The notes below the pieces were generated by a model. That model saw only the letters and a program-made list of their open reading frames with translations. It was not told where the DNA came from and made no database searches. A program made the position numbers and the translations under genes. This document shows, in pieces, positions 16,410-50,211 of a stretch of DNA of 64,000 nt (position 1 is its first letter; every line of letters begins with the position of its first letter). The stretch is from Pseudofrankia sp. DC12 (lineage in GTDB: Bacteria > Actinomycetota > Actinomycetes > Frankiales > Frankiaceae): the NCBI RefSeq assembly GCF_000966285.1, contig NZ_KQ031391.1:4418540-4482539 (forward strand), written 5' to 3'.

Positions 16410-17960
16410 TCAGGTGTGGCAGGGCGTGAAGAAACAGGTGGGGCTCGCGCTGCCGGATGGCGACCGGGGCGGGGTCGTCGCCGGTGGCGGGGTCGTCGCC
16501 GGTGGCGGGGTCGTCGTCGGCGGTGGGGTCGGTGTGGACGTGATGACTGGCGGCGTCGTGACCTGCGTCGGCGCCGACGTGTGCGACAGCGACGGGTGGT
16601 GCGACGGCTCGGTCACTGACGCCACCGACGTTGGGATGTCGATCGGCTGCAGCCCGCCCGGCGTCGAGGCCGAGCCAGTCGGGGCGCTCGGCGCACCGGT
16701 CGCCGAGGTCGACTGCTGAGGGTTCCCGCCGCCGTGGTGCGTCAGCAGCAGGCTGACCGCGACGGCCGCTCCCAGCACCAGCAGCGCGGCGACCGCCGCG
16801 AACACCAACGGCCGCCGGTCGGTCTGCCGACGCAGGGTGTCCTGGCGCGGTCGCGGGAACGGCCCACTGGAGACCGACTCCAAACCGGACAGCTCGTCGG
16901 AGCTGGTGCTGGAGAGCTCGTCCTCGATCGCCCGCATCGCGGCGGCCTTCGCGAACCGGGAGCCCGCGTCCTCGTCGGCGTCCGGGGCGGGGAAGCCAGA
17001 ACCGTCGCTGACCTTCTCGAGCCCGTCGTCGATAGCGGTCGCCGCGTCGATGCCGGGGCCGTTGATCACAAAGAGCGGAACCGGCTCGCTGCCGCGGGCG
17101 ATCGGCGTCAGTCGCTGCCGGACCTCGTCGGCGTCCGGTCGCTCTTCGGCCGGCTTGTCGAGAAGATCGCCGAGCAGGCTGCGGAGGGGGCCCGCGTTGC
17201 GGAACGCCCGCCGTCGGCCCTCGACGACCGCGGACAGCACGGCGTACGTCTCGGGGCCCTCATAAGGTGGGGTCCCCTCGACGGCGGAGTACAGCGTCGC
17301 GGCCAGGCCCCACAGGTCACTGGACGGCGTCCCGGACGAGCCGCGGATCCGTTCCGGCGCGATGTAGGCCGGCGAGCCGACGAGAGCGCCGGTGCCGGTC
17401 AGGGTCATGTCGCCCTCGGTCGCCGCGATGCCGAAGTCGGTCAGGCGGACCCGGCCGTCCCGCCCCAGCAGCACGTTGCCCGGCTTCACGTCCCGGTGCA
17501 GCACGCCCTTCTGATGCGCGGCGCCGAGCGCGTGGATGAGCTCCAGCCCGATCGCCGCGACCTGGTCGGGCGGCAGCGGGCCGTTGTTGCGGATGACATC
17601 GCCGAGGCTCTCCGCGTCGACGAGCTCCATGATGATCCAGTGACGCTCGGACTCCTCGACCACGTCGTGGACGGCGACGATCGAGGGGCTGTTCAGCCGC
17701 GCGAGAGCGCGCGCCTCGCGCAGCACCCGCGCGCGGATCGCGTCCCGCTCGTTCTGGGCGCCCGCGAGCGGGACGAGGATCTCCTTGATCGCAACGCGAC
17801 GTTGGAGGACCTCGTCCTCACCGCTCCAGACGACGCCGGCGCCGCCTCGACCGATTGGTGCGTCGAGGCGGTATCGTCCGGCGACGATGTTTGGGGTGCC
17901 GTTCCGGGAGGTCTCCCCGTTCCGGGAGGTCTCCGGCGGCACACTTGCCGATCTGGCCAT
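16410..17960 (-). CDS. Membrane serine/threonine protein kinase (PknB type)
   Basis: About 516 residues. The cytoplasmic kinase domain (about 30-290) has all key motifs: GRGGAGVVW glycine loop, VAIKEI lysine, HRDVKPGN catalytic loop, DFGIA, and GSPAYIAPER. A juxtamembrane Ser/Asp/Glu-rich linker follows, then one helix (about 395-415) and an outer Pro/Thr/Ser-rich tail of 100 residues with TTPPP repeats and two Cys near the end; no PASTA domains. ATG 17960 is chosen, but a hairpin (17962-17967/17972-17977) sits where the ribosome site should be. ATG 18053 would add 31 residues. An 18-bp duplication at 17900-17935 repeats TSRNGE. Confidence 0.88.
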   Translation of the reverse strand: MARSASVPPETSRNGETSRNGTPNIVAGRYRLDAPIGRGGAGVVWSGEDEVLQRRVAIKEILVPLAGAQNERDAIRARVLREARALARLNSPSIVAVHDVVEESERHWIIMELVDAESLGDVIRNNGPLPPDQVAAIGLELIHALGAAHQKGVLHRDVKPGNVLLGRDGRVRLTDFGIAATEGDMTLTGTGALVGSPAYIAPERIRGSSGTPSSDLWGLAATLYSAVEGTPPYEGPETYAVLSAVVEGRRRAFRNAGPLRSLLGDLLDKPAEERPDADEVRQRLTPIARGSEPVPLFVINGPGIDAATAIDDGLEKVSDGSGFPAPDADEDAGSRFAKAAAMRAIEDELSSTSSDELSGLESVSSGPFPRPRQDTLRRQTDRRPLVFAAVAALLVLGAAVAVSLLLTHHGGGNPQQSTSATGAPSAPTGSASTPGGLQPIDIPTSVASVTEPSHHPSLSHTSAPTQVTTPPVITSTPTPPPTTTPPPATTPPPATTPPRSPSGSASPTCFFTPCHT

Positions 17961-18104: not shown

Positions 18105-20435
18105 TCACGGGGCTGGGCGGAAGGTCGCGAACAGCTGCCGCCTCAGTGCCTGGTCGCTGGCCCACTGCTGTTCCCCGGTCCGCCAGGAGAGCAGGTAGCC
18201 GTGGCCGCCCCGGTCGGCGCCGCGCGAGAGCACATGCACCTTGCCTCCGTCCATGCTGTACGTGTACTCCCAGTCGGCCTCGGTCGATCCGTCGCCCGTG
18301 CCGACCGGGGCGAGCCGCAGGCGCTGGTAGTCCGCCAGCCCCATCGGCCCGCTGTGTGAGGCCGTGTCGAAGTTCGTCAGCCAGTCCCGCAGGACCGACG
18401 CCGGTGCCTGCCCCGCGCTTCCAACGCGCAGAACCGTACCAGTGGTCGGATTGGTGAAGTCGACCGTTCCGGCGCCCCCGGCGCCCGCCGCGCGCTTCCA
18501 GCTCGACGGGTACGCGAGCGACCAGCCGGCCGGGTCGGTGTAGGAGACCCAGCCGCGTGGCGGGGGCACGGGGGAGGTGGCGGCGGCCAGCGGGCCGTCC
18601 GGGACGGCGCTCGGGGGAGCGCTCGAGGCAAGGTCGGATGTGGCCGCGGCGGGGGTGCTCGCCTGCCGGTCGTCCTTGCCGTCGTCGGCGGACAGGCGGA
18701 CCACGAGCAGCGCGACCGCGAGCACCACGACGAGCACGGCCAGCACGATCATCGCGCGGCGTTCCGCCTGGGACCGGGGCGGGGTGTCCTCGCCGGGGCG
18801 CCTGGGGCGTGGCGGCCGGGGCGGGTCGTCGGACGGGCTGGCCTCGTCCGCGCTGGCCGGGCCGTCGCTGGCCGGGCCGGTGGGCCGGCTGGTCGCCCAG
18901 GCGGACCCCGAGTCCCAGTAGTCGGCGAGATCGTCGAGCTCGGCCGCGTCACCGCGCGGGCGCGGGACCTCGGTCGCGCCCGGCGTCGGCTGGTTGACCG
19001 CCGGGTCACCCACCAAAGTGCTTGTTGACGCGGGCAGGTCCGCGCCTTGGCCAGGCCCGTCCCCAACCGTGTCGTCGGCCAGCGCGCCCTTCATGATCAC
19101 TGTGGTCGGGACCTGGGCCTCGACGGGGCCGGTGGTGACGGGGCCGGCTTCCTTCTCGGCACCCTCGGCCTCGGTTCGCGGATCCGGGGATGCCGGGCTG
19201 ACGGGCGCCTCGGCGAAGACCCGGGTCGGTCCCGCCACCGCCGTGGCGTCGGCGGCCGGCGCGGGGCCCTGCCTGGGCGTGGCCGGTTCGGCCGGGCGCG
19301 GCGTGGCTGGCGTGACGGGATCGGGCGCGGCCGGTCCGGCCGGGCGGGGTGTCGCCGGCGTGACCGGGCGGGGTGTGACCGGCGTCGGTCGCGCCGTGGC
19401 GGGCCGCGGCGTGGCTGCCCGTGGCGTGGATGGTGTGGCCGCGCGTGGCGGCACCGGCGGGGAGGCGGAGGAACGGCCGGCTGACGAGGCCGCTGGCCGC
19501 GCGGGCGGTGGGCTGGTCGGCCGGGGGGCCGCCCGGGTCTGGCCGGTCGCCGACGGCCGCCCTGGCGTCTCGCCCGCCAGGTCGCGCAGCCGGGTCCGCA
19601 CGTTGGTGAGCGTCGGGCGCTCCAGCTCCCGCTGGGAGAGCATCCCCTCCAGGAGGGGCCCGAGCCTGCCCGCGTGCCGGGCCGGCCGGATCAGGCCTTC
19701 GACGACGGAGGTCAGGATGTCGAGCGGGGTGGCGCCGCCGAACGGTGGCTCGCCCTCGGCGGCCGCGTACAGGGTGGCGCCGAGTCCCCAGACGTCGCAC
19801 TCCGGCCCGCCAGGCTCGCCGTGCGCCCGCTCCGGGGCCAGGTAGGCCGGCGATCCCACGACCTCGCCTGTCCGGGTCAGCCGCGGGTCGCCGTCGCTGA
19901 CCGCGATCCCGAAGTCGGTGAGCCTGGCCTGTCCGTCCCGGTTGAGCAGGACGTTGCTGGGCTTGACGTCGCGATGCACGACGCCGAGGCGGTGCGCGGC
20001 GTCCAGCGCGTAGGCCAGCGAGATCCCGATCTGGGCGACCTGGTCGACCGGCAGGCCGCCCTCGCGCTCGATCCTGGCCGACAGCGGCTCGCCCTCGACG
20101 AGCTCCATCACGATCCACGGCAGCTCGCCGTCGTCAATGACGTCCAGCACACCGACCGCGCCCGGATGGTGGATTCGGCCGGCGGAACGGGCCTCGCGCA
20201 GCACCCGCTCCCGGGCGTCCGCGTTCGCGGCCGGACTGCCGGTCGGCATCCGCACTTCCTTGACGGCGACGGTCCGCCGCATGATCTGGTCCGTGGCGCG
20301 GTGTACCACGCCCATGCCGCCGACGCCGATGACCGCGTCGAGCCGGTAGCGCCGGCCGACGATCGTGCCCGGGGCATGCCCCGAGGAGCCCGCTGGCAGG
20401 CCGGATCCCATCGCTGACCGGCCTTCGCCTGCCAT
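18105..20435 (-). CDS. Membrane serine/threonine protein kinase with secreted sensor domain
   Basis: 776 residues. The kinase domain (about 28-290) is intact: GVGGMGVVH, VAVKEV, HRDVKPSN, DFGIA, GSPAYLAPER. A long Pro/Thr/Ala-rich linker (about 295-570) contains TPRP-type repeats and probably carries phosphosites. One membrane helix follows (about 576-598), then an outer domain of about 130 residues (GWVSYTDPAGWSLAYPSSWK... to ATFRPAP) of a PsbP-like look seen in other actinobacterial kinases. The ATG at 20435 has GAGAGAGG upstream. It is separated by about 145 bases from the next kinase gene on the same strand, so the two may be cotranscribed. Confidence 0.9.
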   Translation of the reverse strand: MAGEGRSAMGSGLPAGSSGHAPGTIVGRRYRLDAVIGVGGMGVVHRATDQIMRRTVAVKEVRMPTGSPAANADARERVLREARSAGRIHHPGAVGVLDVIDDGELPWIVMELVEGEPLSARIEREGGLPVDQVAQIGISLAYALDAAHRLGVVHRDVKPSNVLLNRDGQARLTDFGIAVSDGDPRLTRTGEVVGSPAYLAPERAHGEPGGPECDVWGLGATLYAAAEGEPPFGGATPLDILTSVVEGLIRPARHAGRLGPLLEGMLSQRELERPTLTNVRTRLRDLAGETPGRPSATGQTRAAPRPTSPPPARPAASSAGRSSASPPVPPRAATPSTPRAATPRPATARPTPVTPRPVTPATPRPAGPAAPDPVTPATPRPAEPATPRQGPAPAADATAVAGPTRVFAEAPVSPASPDPRTEAEGAEKEAGPVTTGPVEAQVPTTVIMKGALADDTVGDGPGQGADLPASTSTLVGDPAVNQPTPGATEVPRPRGDAAELDDLADYWDSGSAWATSRPTGPASDGPASADEASPSDDPPRPPRPRRPGEDTPPRSQAERRAMIVLAVLVVVLAVALLVVRLSADDGKDDRQASTPAAATSDLASSAPPSAVPDGPLAAATSPVPPPRGWVSYTDPAGWSLAYPSSWKRAAGAGGAGTVDFTNPTTGTVLRVGSAGQAPASVLRDWLTNFDTASHSGPMGLADYQRLRLAPVGTGDGSTEADWEYTYSMDGGKVHVLSRGADRGGHGYLLSWRTGEQQWASDQALRRQLFATFRPAP

Positions 20436-45157: not shown

Positions 45158-45661
45158 GTGGGCTTTCCCGAGGACATCCTGACCGACGACGAGATCGTCG
45201 TGCTGGACCTGCATCCGCACTGGGTCCGGCTGGTGGGGCCGCTGGCCAGCGCGGCGCTGGTACTTCTGCTCGCGGTGCTCGGGGTGTTCTTCGCGCCGAG
45301 CGGCTCGGTGCAGAAGCCGCTCCAGTACCTGGTTCTGATCGTCGCCGTGGCCGCGCTGTCCTACCTCAGCGTCCGGCCGTGGCTGCGCTGGGTCACCACC
45401 CGCTATGTGATCACCACAGAGCGGGTGCTGCTGCGGCACGGCATCCTGACCAGGACCGGCCACGACATCCCGCTGGTCCGGATCAACGACATCGGCTTCA
45501 ACCAGACCCTGTTCGAGCGGATGTTCAGCTCGGGCACGCTGACGATTGAGAGCGCCGGCGAGCGCGGCCAGCTGAGCCTGGCCAGCGTCCCGAACGTCGA
45601 GCAGGTGCACCTGCGCCTCTACGAGCTCGGTGAGGACCTGCGCGGGCGCGAGAGTGCCTGA
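45158..45661 (+). CDS. PH domain-containing membrane protein (bPH2/DUF304)
   Basis: 167 residues. Two membrane helices (about 24-46 and 52-72) followed by a bPH2 domain: TTRYVITTERVLLRHGILTR, then IPLVRINDIGFNQTLFERMF and GTLTIESAGERGQLSLASVP, the usual pattern. Membrane-associated, function unknown; the order birA then PH protein is common in actinobacteria. The GTG at 45158 lacks a clear ribosome site. Confidence 0.88.
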   Translation: MGFPEDILTDDEIVVLDLHPHWVRLVGPLASAALVLLLAVLGVFFAPSGSVQKPLQYLVLIVAVAALSYLSVRPWLRWVTTRYVITTERVLLRHGILTRTGHDIPLVRINDIGFNQTLFERMFSSGTLTIESAGERGQLSLASVPNVEQVHLRLYELGEDLRGRESA

Positions 45662-45678: not shown

Positions 45679-46329
45679 CTACGGCGCGGTGAAGCCGCGC
45701 CACCACGCGATCAGGCCTGCCGCGTCGGTGCCGCTGGCCGTCAGCGCGGTCTGGTCGGCGGTCACGGTCCAGAAGATGGCGAAGGTGCCGGCGGGCGTCC
45801 CGGCCGGGACGTGGTCGCACAGGAAGACGCCCAGCTGCCTGGTCGAGCGGCCCCAGGTCTCCGTGCTCGGCTGGCCGGCCGAGCAGCTGCCGACGTCGTC
45901 GATCGCGGCGGCCCGCCGGTCGGCGTCGGCCTTCAGTGCGGCCGCGTCCCGGTAGTGCCGGGCGACGAGCTCGGCCGGCCCCGGCTCACCGGCCAGCACG
46001 TTCGTCGCGCAACGGACCGCCGCGTCGACGCCCTGGCCGAGGCCGAGCCCCGGGCCGGGCGGCTCGGTGACCCGCTCCGCGGGTGCCGGCGCGCAGTCGT
46101 GCACCTTCAGCGGCCCGAGTGTCCCGGCGAGCGCCCGCTGGGCCGGCGTGAGGCCGTCTGGCGGCGATGTGAAGCCGACGGGCGGGGCGGCCTGGGTGGC
46201 GGAGTCGGCCGGCCGGGTGCCACCGGCGGCCGACCCGCCGCCGGTGGTGAGGAGCACGGTGATGGTCACTGCGGCGGCGACCACCAGCGCCCCGCCGGCC
46301 GCCACCGCAGCGACAGTCCCACGCCGCAT
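45679..46329 (-). CDS. Secreted/anchored four-cysteine domain protein (paralogue A)
   Basis: 216 residues. An N-terminal helix (about 6-28) acts as signal or anchor, without a lipobox Cys. The outer domain (about 55-216) shares with the two next genes the pattern LTPAQRALAGTLGPL...HDC.P, AAVRCATN, GSCSAG, LGVFLCD and the terminal LIAWWRGF. Four cysteines align with B and C, so two disulfides are likely. I do not recognise the domain. ATG 46329 has GGAGGGG upstream. It lacks the Pro-rich cytoplasmic part that B and C have. Confidence 0.78.
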   Translation of the reverse strand: MRRGTVAAVAAGGALVVAAAVTITVLLTTGGGSAAGGTRPADSATQAAPPVGFTSPPDGLTPAQRALAGTLGPLKVHDCAPAPAERVTEPPGPGLGLGQGVDAAVRCATNVLAGEPGPAELVARHYRDAAALKADADRRAAAIDDVGSCSAGQPSTETWGRSTRQLGVFLCDHVPAGTPAGTFAIFWTVTADQTALTASGTDAAGLIAWWRGFTAP

Positions 46330-46479
46330 CGGGTCCCCTCCCGTTCGGCCGCCGCCCAGGATGGGCGTACCGGTACGTTCCCGGTCGGTGCGACGCCCAC
46401 CGGCCGCGGTTCGTTGCCGCCGGCGGACCTGGCGAGCGCCGGGTCTCACGGCCACCTGCTCCGCCCGAGGGGCCGTCGG

Positions 46480-47580
46480 TCAGGCCGGGCGGGCCGTCGA
46501 GGCGGATGGGTCCGTCGAGTCCGGGAAGGGCTGGAACGACTCCCACCAGTCGAACAGTGCCCGAGGGTCGCTTCCGTAGCCGAGGAACGAGACCAGGTCC
46601 GCGTCCGCGGTCCAGAACAGGAAGTGCTGGCCGGCGCGGGTGTCGCAGATGACCGTGCCGCCGGTCTGGGTGCGGGGGCCGGTGTCCCAGGTGAAGATCT
46701 CGCTCCCGCCGTCCTCACACCGGCCGTCGCCGGCCACGCCGTCGGCCCGGGCCGCGACGTCGGCGGTCAGGCTGGCGTCGTCGCGGTAGCCGAAGACGGC
46801 GATCTGCTGGTGGGTGTCGGTGGCCGAGCAGAACAGCGCGGCCGTCACCCCGGCGCCGGCTGGGGCCGGGTTCGGCCGGCAGTCGCTGACCGCGGCCGGG
46901 TCCAGCCGGGCCGCGAGGGCCCGCTGCGCCTCGGTCCAGGCCAGCTCCGGTGTCGCGGCCGGCGCGGCTGCTGGGGACGCGGCGGCCCCGCCGGACCTCG
47001 TCGCGACCGCGAACAGGCCACCGACGACGGCTGCGAGCATCACCACCCCTGCGGTCACGACCAGCGCGACCACCAACGGTCGGGACTGACGGTGCTGACC
47101 GGCGCCGGGGAACGGGGTCATGGCCACCGGCATCGTGCCGGGACCACGGACACCCGGACCGGGCGGCATTCCCGGCCAGGAGGCTGGCGGTGCCGGCGGC
47201 CACGGCGGGCGAGGGGCCTGAGGCGGGCCCGGCGGGCCGGCCCAGCCTGGCGGAGGCGGTATCCGGCCCGGTGCACCCGCCTGCGGCGCGGACGCGGTCG
47301 GCGGGAAGGGGGCCGGCGGCGGCGCCGGCCGGCCCGGCGGCGGTAGGACCGGCACGGGACGGCCAGGCTGCGGCATCGGACGGCCAGGCTGCGGCATCGG
47401 ACGGCCGGGCTGCGGCGCGGGCGGCGCCGGTCGTGGCGACGCCTGGGCCGGCGGCGCGCCTGGACCTTCCCGGAGCGGCAGCGGGGTGACGTCCGCCCAG
47501 CTGGCGAGCGACGTCCAGGGACCGTCGTCGCGCGCGGTGCCGTCAGGTCGAGGCGGCACGTTGTCGGGCGGGCTCGCCAC
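46480..47580 (-). CDS. Membrane protein with Pro-rich cytoplasmic part and four-cysteine outer domain (paralogue B)
   Basis: 366 residues. Residues 1-165 are Pro/Gly-rich with QPGRPMP repeats, one helix lies at about 170-195, and the outer domain runs about 213-350: EAQRALAARLDPAAVSDCRP, AALFCSATD, DGRCEDGG, GTVICDTRAG, ALFDWWESF. The four Cys and the WW..F ending match A and C. Function unknown; a sensor or scaffold at the membrane is a guess. GTG 47580 has GGGAGGAAC directly upstream. Confidence 0.8.
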   Translation of the reverse strand: MASPPDNVPPRPDGTARDDGPWTSLASWADVTPLPLREGPGAPPAQASPRPAPPAPQPGRPMPQPGRPMPQPGRPVPVLPPPGRPAPPPAPFPPTASAPQAGAPGRIPPPPGWAGPPGPPQAPRPPWPPAPPASWPGMPPGPGVRGPGTMPVAMTPFPGAGQHRQSRPLVVALVVTAGVVMLAAVVGGLFAVATRSGGAAASPAAAPAATPELAWTEAQRALAARLDPAAVSDCRPNPAPAGAGVTAALFCSATDTHQQIAVFGYRDDASLTADVAARADGVAGDGRCEDGGSEIFTWDTGPRTQTGGTVICDTRAGQHFLFWTADADLVSFLGYGSDPRALFDWWESFQPFPDSTDPSASTARPA

Positions 47581-47798
47581 CGTTCCTCCCGGGAGTCCGC
47601 CCGCGGCCGCATGGTCGTGGACAGGTTGTTAGCTGGGACAGGGCCCGACGACGGACCACCGACGTGGGCGGCCACCAGCCTGGTTCAGCCGGCCACCTGC
47701 CTGGCGGCGGGCCGGTCCGGGCTATCAGCGCCTCCAGCGGGTGCCGCCGCCCGGACGGTCGGTCCGGGCGGCGGTTGGTCACCGTGAGGCAGCATTCA

Positions 47799-48950
47799 TT
47801 ACTGAACGGCTTCGAAGTTACGCCACCACGTGTAGAGGGCGGCTCCGTCCTTGTCCGTGGCGAAGAATCCGAGCAGCTTGTCGTCGTAGTACCAGCGAAT
47901 GTAGGCGGAGCCGTCGCTGGTGTGGCCGCACAGCAGCGCACCCTCGTCGGTCTCCCGGTTCTCATAGTTCCAGGTGCTGACCTGGTCCTTGCCATCCTTG
48001 CAGTCGCCGGTGTCGGTGATCGCGTCGCTGTAGAACTTCGTGTCGTGCTGAAGACCGGAGTCGTTGACGTAGCTGAACGCGTAGACGCCGCGCCCGTCGT
48101 CACCGGATGAGCACAGCACGGCCGCCTGGATGTCGTCGTTCTCCTGGTCGGGCGCCGGGTCGCAGTTCGTCATTGAGGACGGGTCGAGCTGGTCGACCAG
48201 TGCCTGCTCGTCCGAGCTCAGCCCGGTCGGCGTCGGTGTCGGTGCCTGCGTCGTCGGTGCCGTCGTGGGGACGGCGGTCGACGGCGCGACAGTGACGGTC
48301 GGCGAGGACGTCGGGCGGGGCGTCGGCTTGTTGCCGCCGCCGGACAGGGTGACCGCCAGGACCACGATCAGGATGACCACGACGACACCGGCCGCGACCC
48401 CGCCGATGATCAGGTTGCGGCGGTTGTTGTCGCGCGGCGGCCGCGGGGCACCCGGGTAGCCGGGCCCGTAGCCGGGCGGCTGGCCGTAGCCAGGCTGCTG
48501 GCTGTAGCCAGGCTGCTGGCTGTAGTCGTAGCCCGGCGCGGGGGTGCCGTAACCGGGCTGCTGCGGCGTGTACCCGGGGTACCCCGGCTGCTGGGCCTGG
48601 CCGTAGTCATAACCGGGCTGCTGGGCCTGCTGGCCGTAGTCGTAGCCCGGCGCGGGGGTGCCGTAACCGGGCTGCTGCTGCGGATAGCCCTGGGCGGGGT
48701 AGCCGGGCGGGGCCGGGTACTGCTGCTGCGGGTCGTACGCGCCCGGCGCCGGGGTCTGGGGTGCCGGATAGCCGGGCGGGTACGCGGTGGTCGGTGGATA
48801 GGGCTGCTGGCCGGCCGGAGGTGGCGGCGTCTGGCCTGCGCCTCCGCCAGCCGAGCCCGGTGGATAGGGCGGCTGGGCCGGCGTCGCGGCGCCGCCGACG
48901 AGCTGGGTCTCGGCGTCCGAGTTGTCCGGCTCGTAGTCCGATGGCTGCAT
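47799..48950 (-). CDS. Membrane protein with QQPGY repeats and four-cysteine outer domain (paralogue C)
   Basis: 383 residues. Residues 1-170 are Gly/Pro/Gln/Tyr-rich with many QQPGY-type repeats. One helix (about 181-203) follows, a Thr/Pro linker, and an outer domain (about 245-383): EQALVDQLDPSSMTNCDPAP, AAVLCSSGD, TGDCKDGK, GALLCGHTSD, ALYTWWRNF. It is the most complete of the three tandem paralogues. The Tyr/Gln-rich part may form condensates or bind partners; that is a guess. ATG 48950 is preceded by GGGAGGGG. Confidence 0.82.
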   Translation of the reverse strand: MQPSDYEPDNSDAETQLVGGAATPAQPPYPPGSAGGGAGQTPPPPAGQQPYPPTTAYPPGYPAPQTPAPGAYDPQQQYPAPPGYPAQGYPQQQPGYGTPAPGYDYGQQAQQPGYDYGQAQQPGYPGYTPQQPGYGTPAPGYDYSQQPGYSQQPGYGQPPGYGPGYPGAPRPPRDNNRRNLIIGGVAAGVVVVILIVVLAVTLSGGGNKPTPRPTSSPTVTVAPSTAVPTTAPTTQAPTPTPTGLSSDEQALVDQLDPSSMTNCDPAPDQENDDIQAAVLCSSGDDGRGVYAFSYVNDSGLQHDTKFYSDAITDTGDCKDGKDQVSTWNYENRETDEGALLCGHTSDGSAYIRWYYDDKLLGFFATDKDGAALYTWWRNFEAVQ

Positions 48951-49277: not shown

Positions 49278-49778
49278 TCAGCGGCCGGCTGGCTCCGGGA
49301 CGCGGGCGGCGGGCGTGGTGTCCGGGCCGGCGACCGCGCGCGGGTGGTCCGGGTGCAGGAAGACCCAGCGCTTGTACGCCCAGAAACGGAACACCGTGCC
49401 CAGCCCGGTTCCCAACACGTTGCCAAACACGTTGAAGGCGAGAGCGCCCTTCAGGTGCAGCACATACTCGCCGAAGCCGAGGCAGCCGAGCGCGATGCCG
49501 AGGCCGATCACATTGAGAACGAAGAAGAGCGTGTACTCACGGCGAACGCCGCTGCGCGCGCGGTGGGCGAAGGACCACTTACGGTTCCCGATGTACGCGA
49601 CGGTCGCCGCTATGACCGTGGAAATCGTCTTCGCCAGCAGCCAGTCCATGTGGAACTGGACGTGACACACGTTCGACGCGACGAAGTCGACGACATATGC
49701 GACGGCACCTACGACGCCGAACTTGCCGACCTCACGGATGAGCAGCTGGACCCGGGAGGGCCGTGCCCGATGCTTCAC
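49278..49778 (-). CDS. GtrA family membrane protein
   Basis: 166 residues, four membrane helices. GtrA proteins are thought to move undecaprenyl-phosphate sugars across the membrane for polysaccharide glycosylation. The entry IREVGKFGVVGAVAYVVDF and the later AYIGNRKWSFAHR and GTVFRFWAYKRWVFLHP are family hallmarks. GTG 49778 has GAGG upstream; ATG 49841 would add 21 disordered residues. It fits the envelope-sugar neighbourhood that follows. Confidence 0.88.
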   Translation of the reverse strand: MKHRARPSRVQLLIREVGKFGVVGAVAYVVDFVASNVCHVQFHMDWLLAKTISTVIAATVAYIGNRKWSFAHRARSGVRREYTLFFVLNVIGLGIALGCLGFGEYVLHLKGALAFNVFGNVLGTGLGTVFRFWAYKRWVFLHPDHPRAVAGPDTTPAARVPEPAGR

Positions 49779-50211
49779 GACAGGCAACCTCGGTTGATTT
49801 CTGCCACCTGCCGAGACTACCGACGTCTCCTGGCGGTCCATCGACTGCCCCCGGCGGCCTACTGGCGCACCCGCTCTGGTCGACACGGAGACGATCGGAT
49901 CAACGACGGGAGGCAACAGTTCTCCTTGGAGGATGACGGGTTGTATTGACGGATGGTGTGCCCTCAGGCGCGCGTCGTGACACGGTCCTCCGGTCGTCGG
50001 CGGCGCAGTCGAGCGCCCCGGGACCTTCGACCACGCACCTCATCGGCCCTCATCGGCCCTCATCGGCCCTCATCGGCCGAATCCACTCCAACGTGACAAT
50101 AAGCATTCCGGGTCACAACCGGGGCGCTGCCCATGTGGAATCCGCGGGGCTCCCACGCCGGTGCCAGACACACGTGGGCCTCGGGCCAGCTCAGAGGGCC
50201 GCTTCCGCGGC
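49779..50211. other. Intergenic region, GtrA to ugd
   Basis: 433 bases without a supported gene, containing four tandem 10-base units at 50039-50078. No clear promoter for the GtrA gene is seen. Confidence 0.4.
50039..50078. repeat. 10-bp tandem repeat, four copies
   Basis: CTCATCGGCC is repeated exactly four times head to tail (50039, 50049, 50059, 50069). It is noncoding and could vary in copy number. Confidence 0.9.

Follow-up and report, generated by a model that had tools for sequence, protein, structure and literature searches.

What does an outer domain without a name, encoded three times in succession in the actinobacterium Pseudofrankia sp. DC12, do for the cell? The window, a stretch of 64,000 nucleotides (contig NZ_KQ031391.1, positions 4,418,540 to 4,482,539; the genome counts 6,884,336 bases on a single contig), holds three head-to-tail genes on the minus strand, here called A, B and C and together the Frankia array. 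An earlier note on this DNA described them as tandem paralogues with one membrane helix and a C-terminal four-cysteine domain each, and proposed an old local expansion of a surface sensor or binding domain. Our answer, which on balance we consider probable, is that the domain is an extracytoplasmic, disulfide-type sensory ectodomain that would bind a ligand outside and signal via one helix to exchangeable cytoplasmic parts, the Frankia genes forming a kinase-less branch. The relevant features are the following (coordinates of the window).

45679..46329, minus strand: gene A, 216 residues from the ATG at 46329, with a short N-terminus, one membrane helix and the four-Cys domain
46249..46305, minus strand: membrane helix or signal anchor of gene A, residues 9-27 (Kyte-Doolittle window 2.39)
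45682..46158, minus strand: four-Cys domain of gene A, extended by an insertion that lies between Cys1 and Cys2 (alignment; AlphaFold predicted local distance difference test (pLDDT) 86.6, predicted template modelling score (pTM) 0.84)
46480..47580, minus strand: gene B, 366 residues from a GTG start, with a Pro/Ala/Gly-rich N-terminal tail, one helix and the four-Cys domain
47020..47076, minus strand: membrane helix of gene B, residues 169-187 (Kyte-Doolittle window 2.77)
46513..46944, minus strand: four-Cys domain of gene B (blastp, Smith-Waterman, alignment)
47799..48950, minus strand: gene C, 383 residues from an ATG start, with a Pro/Gly/Gln/Tyr-rich N-terminal tail, one helix and the four-Cys domain
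48357..48413, minus strand: membrane helix of gene C, residues 180-198 (Kyte-Doolittle window 3.22)
47802..48227, minus strand: four-Cys domain of gene C (alignment; AlphaFold pLDDT 92.3, pTM 0.88)

The genes follow each other in the order C, B, A, with spacers of 218 (C-B) and 150 bases (B-A). The start of gene A was chosen by eye as an in-frame ATG ahead of the hydrophobic segment, the frame being open to a GTG at 46455. Each product has a single strong hydrophobic segment (Kyte-Doolittle) and shares a C-terminal domain of 138-157 residues (157 in A, 138 in B and 140 in C), in which four Cys align and which ends on WW..F, just as the earlier note had it. That note also credited two of the proteins with long Pro/Tyr/Gln-rich cytoplasmic parts, which is apt for gene C (45 P, 30 G, 28 Q and 23 Y among 179 tail residues) but not for gene B, whose tail of 168 residues is rich in Pro, Ala and Gly (61 P, 21 A, 20 G and 8 Q) with Tyr outside the eight commonest residues. 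Gene A has 8 residues ahead of its helix. The domain itself is predicted to lie outside: Arg residues (RDNNRRN) precede the helix of gene C, the small mycobacterial copies have signal-peptide-like starts (by eye), and those relatives that contain a kinase carry it at the other end.

The three outer domains are clearly related. Pairwise they show 28-35% identity (blastp, E 4e-13 to 4e-26), and their Smith-Waterman scores (195, 147 and 212) compare with shuffle means of 28-36 (standard deviation 5-7); for no pair did any of 1000 shuffles score as high as the real sequences. All 181 distinct full-length domains from the fetched loci retain the four Cys and one Gly, a figure that is somewhat flattered as the search model favours Cys, Gly and Trp columns, and no single loss of a Cys was seen; three Trp columns in the C-terminal half were kept in 171-175 of the 181. 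Because no full-length member that was found lacks any of the four Cys, their pairing could not be deduced from joint losses and this approach was ruled out. Such invariance, in an extracytoplasmic position, might also suit a thiol redox sensor whose four Cys switch between reduced and oxidised forms. We consider that very improbable, given that the joint retention of the Cys with the Trp and Gly columns looks structural and that there is no CxxC pair among the conserved Cys; moreover, the sensor of the kinase PknH is likewise described with two disulfides, as well as with a cleft for which small-molecule binding is suggested (PMC3601408).

The earlier note could not name the domain, and the same holds for the libraries. 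Genes A-C gave only matches far under the cut-offs in Pfam and NCBIfam (E up to 10), and the PDB sequence search with the window genes and their relatives yielded nothing significant (best E 0.053); by sequence, the domain thus resembles no characterised domain significantly, whether the start was the window or its relatives. Several sub-cut-off candidates were rejected. A GltJ match had the lowest E for any of genes A-C (3.9e-6, 26 bits versus a cut-off of 450) and covered the tail, the helix, the linker and the first domain residues of gene C; DUF3242 (E 0.25) was the sole such match inside the gene C domain; and the Rv0361_Cterm, CwsA, CU044_5270 and anti-sigma matches of the mycobacterial relatives lay on or around the membrane segment. 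A kinase domain was found by neither Pfam nor NCBIfam in genes A-C, which are not receptor Ser/Thr kinases themselves. None of the libraries that were searched has a name for the domain, which would be a receptor ectodomain of actinobacteria not described before; the literature was not searched by domain sequence, and absence from print is not established.

A function is suggested by the partners to which the domain is fused elsewhere. In a set of 180 domain-bearing frames (a picked sample and not a census, the loci having been chosen partly for long frames), a kinase model matched 31, an Hsp70 model matched 6, and the other 143 matched neither of the two; the kinase model was built from kinases of the window's own genome, and four of the six Hsp70 frames went into the Hsp70 model. 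Pfam confirmed the kinase in L066, L070, L090, L095, L180, L234, L237 and L240 (L-numbers denote fetched loci) and HSP70 in L053, L089, L073 and L075. The fusion to Ser/Thr kinases, for which the earlier note had proposed to look, thus exists. The gene C clade (11 rows, 97/93) even includes the Frankia-genus kinases L066-L068, whose membrane segment is similar to that of gene C (by eye). Another Frankia-genus kinase (L070, 5215-8160, minus strand) has an outer part of three tandem divergent domain copies, and a mycobacterial kinase with the domain (L234, 1579-3474, minus strand) has HRG instead of HRD in the catalytic loop and is perhaps a pseudokinase.

One further frame (L071, 5586-6707, minus strand) consists of EAD1 (PF19955, E 1.8e-13), a hydrophobic segment and the domain, and may be linked to conflict systems, for which EAD1 is described as an adaptor (PMC7159879). 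It could be argued from this fusion that the domain is a surface module of conflict and defence, which recognises rivals or phage and triggers effectors. This appears most improbable considering that a single EAD1 case was seen, that the array is fixed and syntenic (in 21 loci and the window, see below), unlike mobile defence islands, and that a phage search with the gene C domain returned no match.

How the domain might serve a kinase can be judged at the embR loci of mycobacteria (embR was called by Pfam in L235 and by eye elsewhere). The order in L180 is embR, a four-Cys kinase, a methyltransferase-like frame (by eye) and a PknH with PknH_C; the two kinases are 69.7% identical over 383 residues and their outer domains do not align. 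L235 and L244 show embR, then a four-Cys kinase, next an ABC exporter that contains two FHA domains, and finally PknH. Over five embR-type loci, all seven four-Cys kinases matched the domain model and not PknH_C (no match to the PknH_C model at E<=10), all three complete PknH neighbours matched PknH_C and not the four-Cys domain, and the kinase-side halves within one locus were 69-85% identical. The PknH of L235 (1683-3907, minus strand), which is split over two frames, either truly or by assembly error, was left out of this count. Neighbouring kinases thus appear to have exchanged one ectodomain for the other. This exchange, together with the kinase fusions, supports the surface sensor or binding domain of the earlier note, without proving it, and a sensing or binding module is probably what the domain is. 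FHA genes adjoin the four-Cys kinases in five of six loci: L235, L244, L245 and L256 have FHA and ABC (Pfam), L246 has an FHA by eye in a frame cut by the locus end, and L180 has no FHA gene. A Rhodococcus plasmid kinase with the domain likewise adjoins an FHA-ABC exporter.

PknH_C (PF14032, structure 4ESQ) is similar to the domain in that it has four conserved Cys and lies at the outer end of PknH-type kinases, where a Pro-rich linker and one helix precede it; it differs in its length (187 positions versus ~140) and in its Cys spacing. Because the profile tests fail, the domain stands outside PknH_C: PF14032 matched none of genes A-C at E<=10 and none of the scanned relatives at E<=0.1 or 0.01 (Pfam), and it had no match in the window's genome. 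By these tests the domain is not a member of PknH_C, and it would work like a PknH-type sensor domain. The gene order of L235 and L244 is that of the RD900 region (embR, pknH2, tbd2, pknH1), of which PMC7785237 states that pknH1 and pknH2 flank the ABC gene tbd2 beside embR and that their kinase domains are alike and their sensor domains different. From the account of the deletion in that paper we infer that the kinase gene adjoining embR is pknH2 and, from nothing but the gene order, that the four-Cys domain would be the PknH2 sensor of RD900.

The distribution of the domain is wide, and the counts are lower bounds since few candidates per genome were scored (at most 70 and 67 in the samples of 58 and 60 genomes, and at most 27, 26 and 10 in those of 148, 149 and 396). 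It was found in at least 34 of 58 relatives' genomes (at least 32 of 35 from the window's family and at least 2 of 23 others), in at least 27 of 29 complete genomes of the order, all from that family, and, within a mycobacterial genus, in at least 49 of 60 genomes; PknH_C was present in all 31 genomes searched of the same genus. A sample of the class gave at least 20 of 148 genomes (13 of the 20 from the window's family), and two samples of the phylum gave at least 14 of 396 and at least 8 of 149, the window's genome included. Frankia and mycobacterial copies are joined by profile (E 3e-14 to 1e-11). Twenty plasmid records, including M. avium, M. gilvum, M. adipatum and Rhodococcus jostii, contain the domain; the annotation of 13 covers just the kinase half, and the other 7 are hypothetical or unannotated. 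The window's genome has a fourth, divergent copy (6678311-6678706, minus strand; L175, 3309-3926; E 1e-9) of ~200 residues, with a lipoprotein-like start (by eye) and all four Cys. In mycobacteria, two or three small tandem copies that consist of a signal-peptide-like start and the domain only occur in L091, L093, L186, L188 and others.

AlphaFold models were made for the domains of genes C and A, from alignments of 12 sequences each. Both show the same order of elements (helix, three strands, helix, four strands, helix), with one additional short helix in gene A. DcrB, TM1622 and TiME were the top three PDB matches for both models in VIA-align, with identities of 4-14%: DcrB 6E8A had a Z of 8.2 (gene C) and 7.3 (gene A), TM1622 1VR8 of 7.5 and 8.2, and TiME of 6.9 and 7.7. 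The PknH ectodomain 4ESQ followed with a Z of 5.6 for gene C (root-mean-square deviation 5.0, 123 residues aligned) and 7.2 for gene A (4.5, 136 aligned). DcrB 6E8A, TM1622 1VR8, TiME, LpqN 6E5D, Mtc28 4PWS, PsbP and Mog1 are presumably all Mog1/PsbP-like, and the models make it probable, without proving it, that the domain has a fold of this type; identity to these proteins is 4-14%, and none of them is seen here to share the four-Cys pattern. The earlier note had asked whether the three predicted outer domains superpose. Models A and C, the two that the comparison covers, agree in their element order and leading PDB matches.

The same structural matches raise the possibility that the domain is a part of the envelope's own structure or transport, like TiME, which makes rings and tubes in the mycobacterial envelope, or LpqN, which serves envelope biogenesis; the domain would then assemble or carry envelope material and be borrowed by kinases to report on assembly. 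TiME (Rv3705c / MSMEG_6251; 7CU8 / 7CU9) was the best Foldseek match of gene A (7cu9_A, E 2.6e-3, probability 0.93), LpqN 6E5D had a Z of 6.2 in the gene A list, and many copies are kinase-less or look secreted. TiME is reported to have an N-terminal helix and a soluble part and to form rings (PMC11434571). Envelope genes also surround the array, the neighbours of which include LytR-CpsA-Psr, UDP-glucose dehydrogenase and GtrA genes. TiME has ~190 residues and 5-12% identity to the domain. On the other hand, the fusions to kinases, Hsp70 and EAD1 suit a sensing module better than an envelope part. The two views overlap, since TiME itself is described with a PknH-like sensor domain (PMC4118811). 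All in all, we deem an envelope part unlikely, though it is the likeliest of the alternatives.

The array itself is old and fixed in place. One or more domain genes were found between gtrA and PH/birA/accD5 in 21 fetched loci of the family and in the window, and eight further loci end at contig ends with one flank visible. In the window, the flanking genes are:

49278..49916, minus strand: GtrA-type membrane protein, syntenic neighbour (PF04138, E 4.6e-22)
45158..45661, plus strand: bacterial PH-domain membrane protein, syntenic neighbour (PF03703, E 5.4e-21)

A tree of 87 domains, none of them mycobacterial, splits into old sister lineages: A (99/91), Y (100/99) and X (92/94), the latter containing both B and C. 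The tree is midpoint-rooted and has few columns for many rows, and the long branches of L045, L064, L070 and L071 are unsure. The order is X, Y, A in two sister genera and C, B, A in the window's genus, whose array lacks Y; one member has Y far from the array (L069), and in another (L062) Y sits at a contig end that hides its place. The old local expansion of the earlier note is thereby borne out and refined, in that B and C form one lineage and A another. A further genus has, at the same spot, a single copy with an Hsp70-like inner half (by Pfam in L053, L073 and L075, by a home-made model in L077; a fifth locus of this genus, L082, ends at a contig end), which implies that at this locus the outer half is constant and the inner half variable. 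In L047, L048 and L049 an insert of around 4 kb separates gene A from the PH gene; the insert of L049 reads by eye as what we take to be tyrosine/homogentisate breakdown genes, unrelated to the domain.

If the array genes are kinase-less, a connection to kinases may reside in the tail of gene C, which contains one candidate site:

48897..48917, minus strand: DAETQLV, residues 12-18 of the gene C tail, candidate kinase/FHA site, conserved in array tails

Of 21 array tails that belong to the X/C type, a set that does not include gene B or its orthologues, 20 contain the pattern D-x(1,2)-T-[QR]-[LIVMR]-[VLIA], against 0.03 tails expected from shuffles of the same tails, an optimistic expectation because the pattern was written after viewing the tails. 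The site is found at residue 12 in 19 of those 20 tails, with up to four sites per tail, and its fixed place and its repetition across genera are not chance. It was absent from the five tails of gene B and its orthologues that were looked at. The site resembles the pTRVV site through which Rv2623 reportedly docks on the FHA I domain of Rv1747 (PMC5549992), and the D-A-E-T-Q/R-x-V sequence suggests a coupling of gene C to a kinase and an FHA protein. The window's genome has 53 kinase-family matches, two of them inside the window (17118-17873 and 19602-20348, minus strand).

Several observations weigh against a sensory ectodomain as proposed here. The 143 frames without kinase or Hsp70 form the bulk of the sample, and many mycobacterial copies look simply secreted. 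No kinase adjoins the Frankia array, the nearest being ~25 kb off. With gene C as a single sequence, tblastn found no plasmid copy, whereas a mycobacterial query found the 20, so that the link between the two groups is by profile only. Homology to PknH_C was not found by hhalign of the two profiles (probability 1.9%, E 0.026, 23 columns). As to structure, Foldseek gave no match at or below 1e-3 for the gene A or the gene C model, the Z values of 5-8 are within the range that the tool flags as a possible common arrangement (Z under ~8), and kinase lobes and START domains, which are unrelated, appear in the same VIA-align lists at Z 4-5. Finally, gene A is almost without a cytoplasmic part and the tail of gene B lacks the site even though B is of the same lineage as C; a relay as proposed for C therefore cannot operate in A, and in B it is undemonstrated.

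With these reservations, the sensory ectodomain remains the reading that we favour. The domain, probably held together by disulfides, would bind a ligand outside the membrane, and the signal would pass through one helix to the cytoplasmic part. Many mycobacteria and some Frankia genomes have a Ser/Thr kinase in this position, which ligand-dependent clustering may switch, and the domain therefore probably acts for these kinases as PknH_C does for PknH. For gene C and its counterparts in other arrays, a partner kinase would phosphorylate the Thr of D-A-E-T-Q/R-x-V near the start of the disordered tail, after which an FHA-domain protein could bind the phosphorylated tail. That the ligand is an envelope glycolipid or polymer is a guess, and a doubtful one, made because envelope genes surround the Frankia array and exporters adjoin the mycobacterial kinases.

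Taken further, a single ectodomain family may serve at least four outputs across the actinobacteria (Ser/Thr kinase, Hsp70-like actin fold, EAD1 and a tail with a phospho-site); it may also be the 'different' sensor of PknH2 that was lost in modern tubercle lineages, and the Frankia array could represent kinase-less co-receptors that respond to envelope ligands of the same class. This wider picture we hold as a serious possibility that falls somewhat short of an even chance. Little is known about the outer halves of actinobacterial receptor kinases, and here a single profile recognises such an outer half in at least 49 of the 60 genomes of the mycobacterial genus and links it with a locus that is conserved in Frankia. 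The domain is defined, small and expressible and has invariant residues, which makes it suited to ligand searches, and for the identity of the second PknH sensor it would offer an answer that can be tested.

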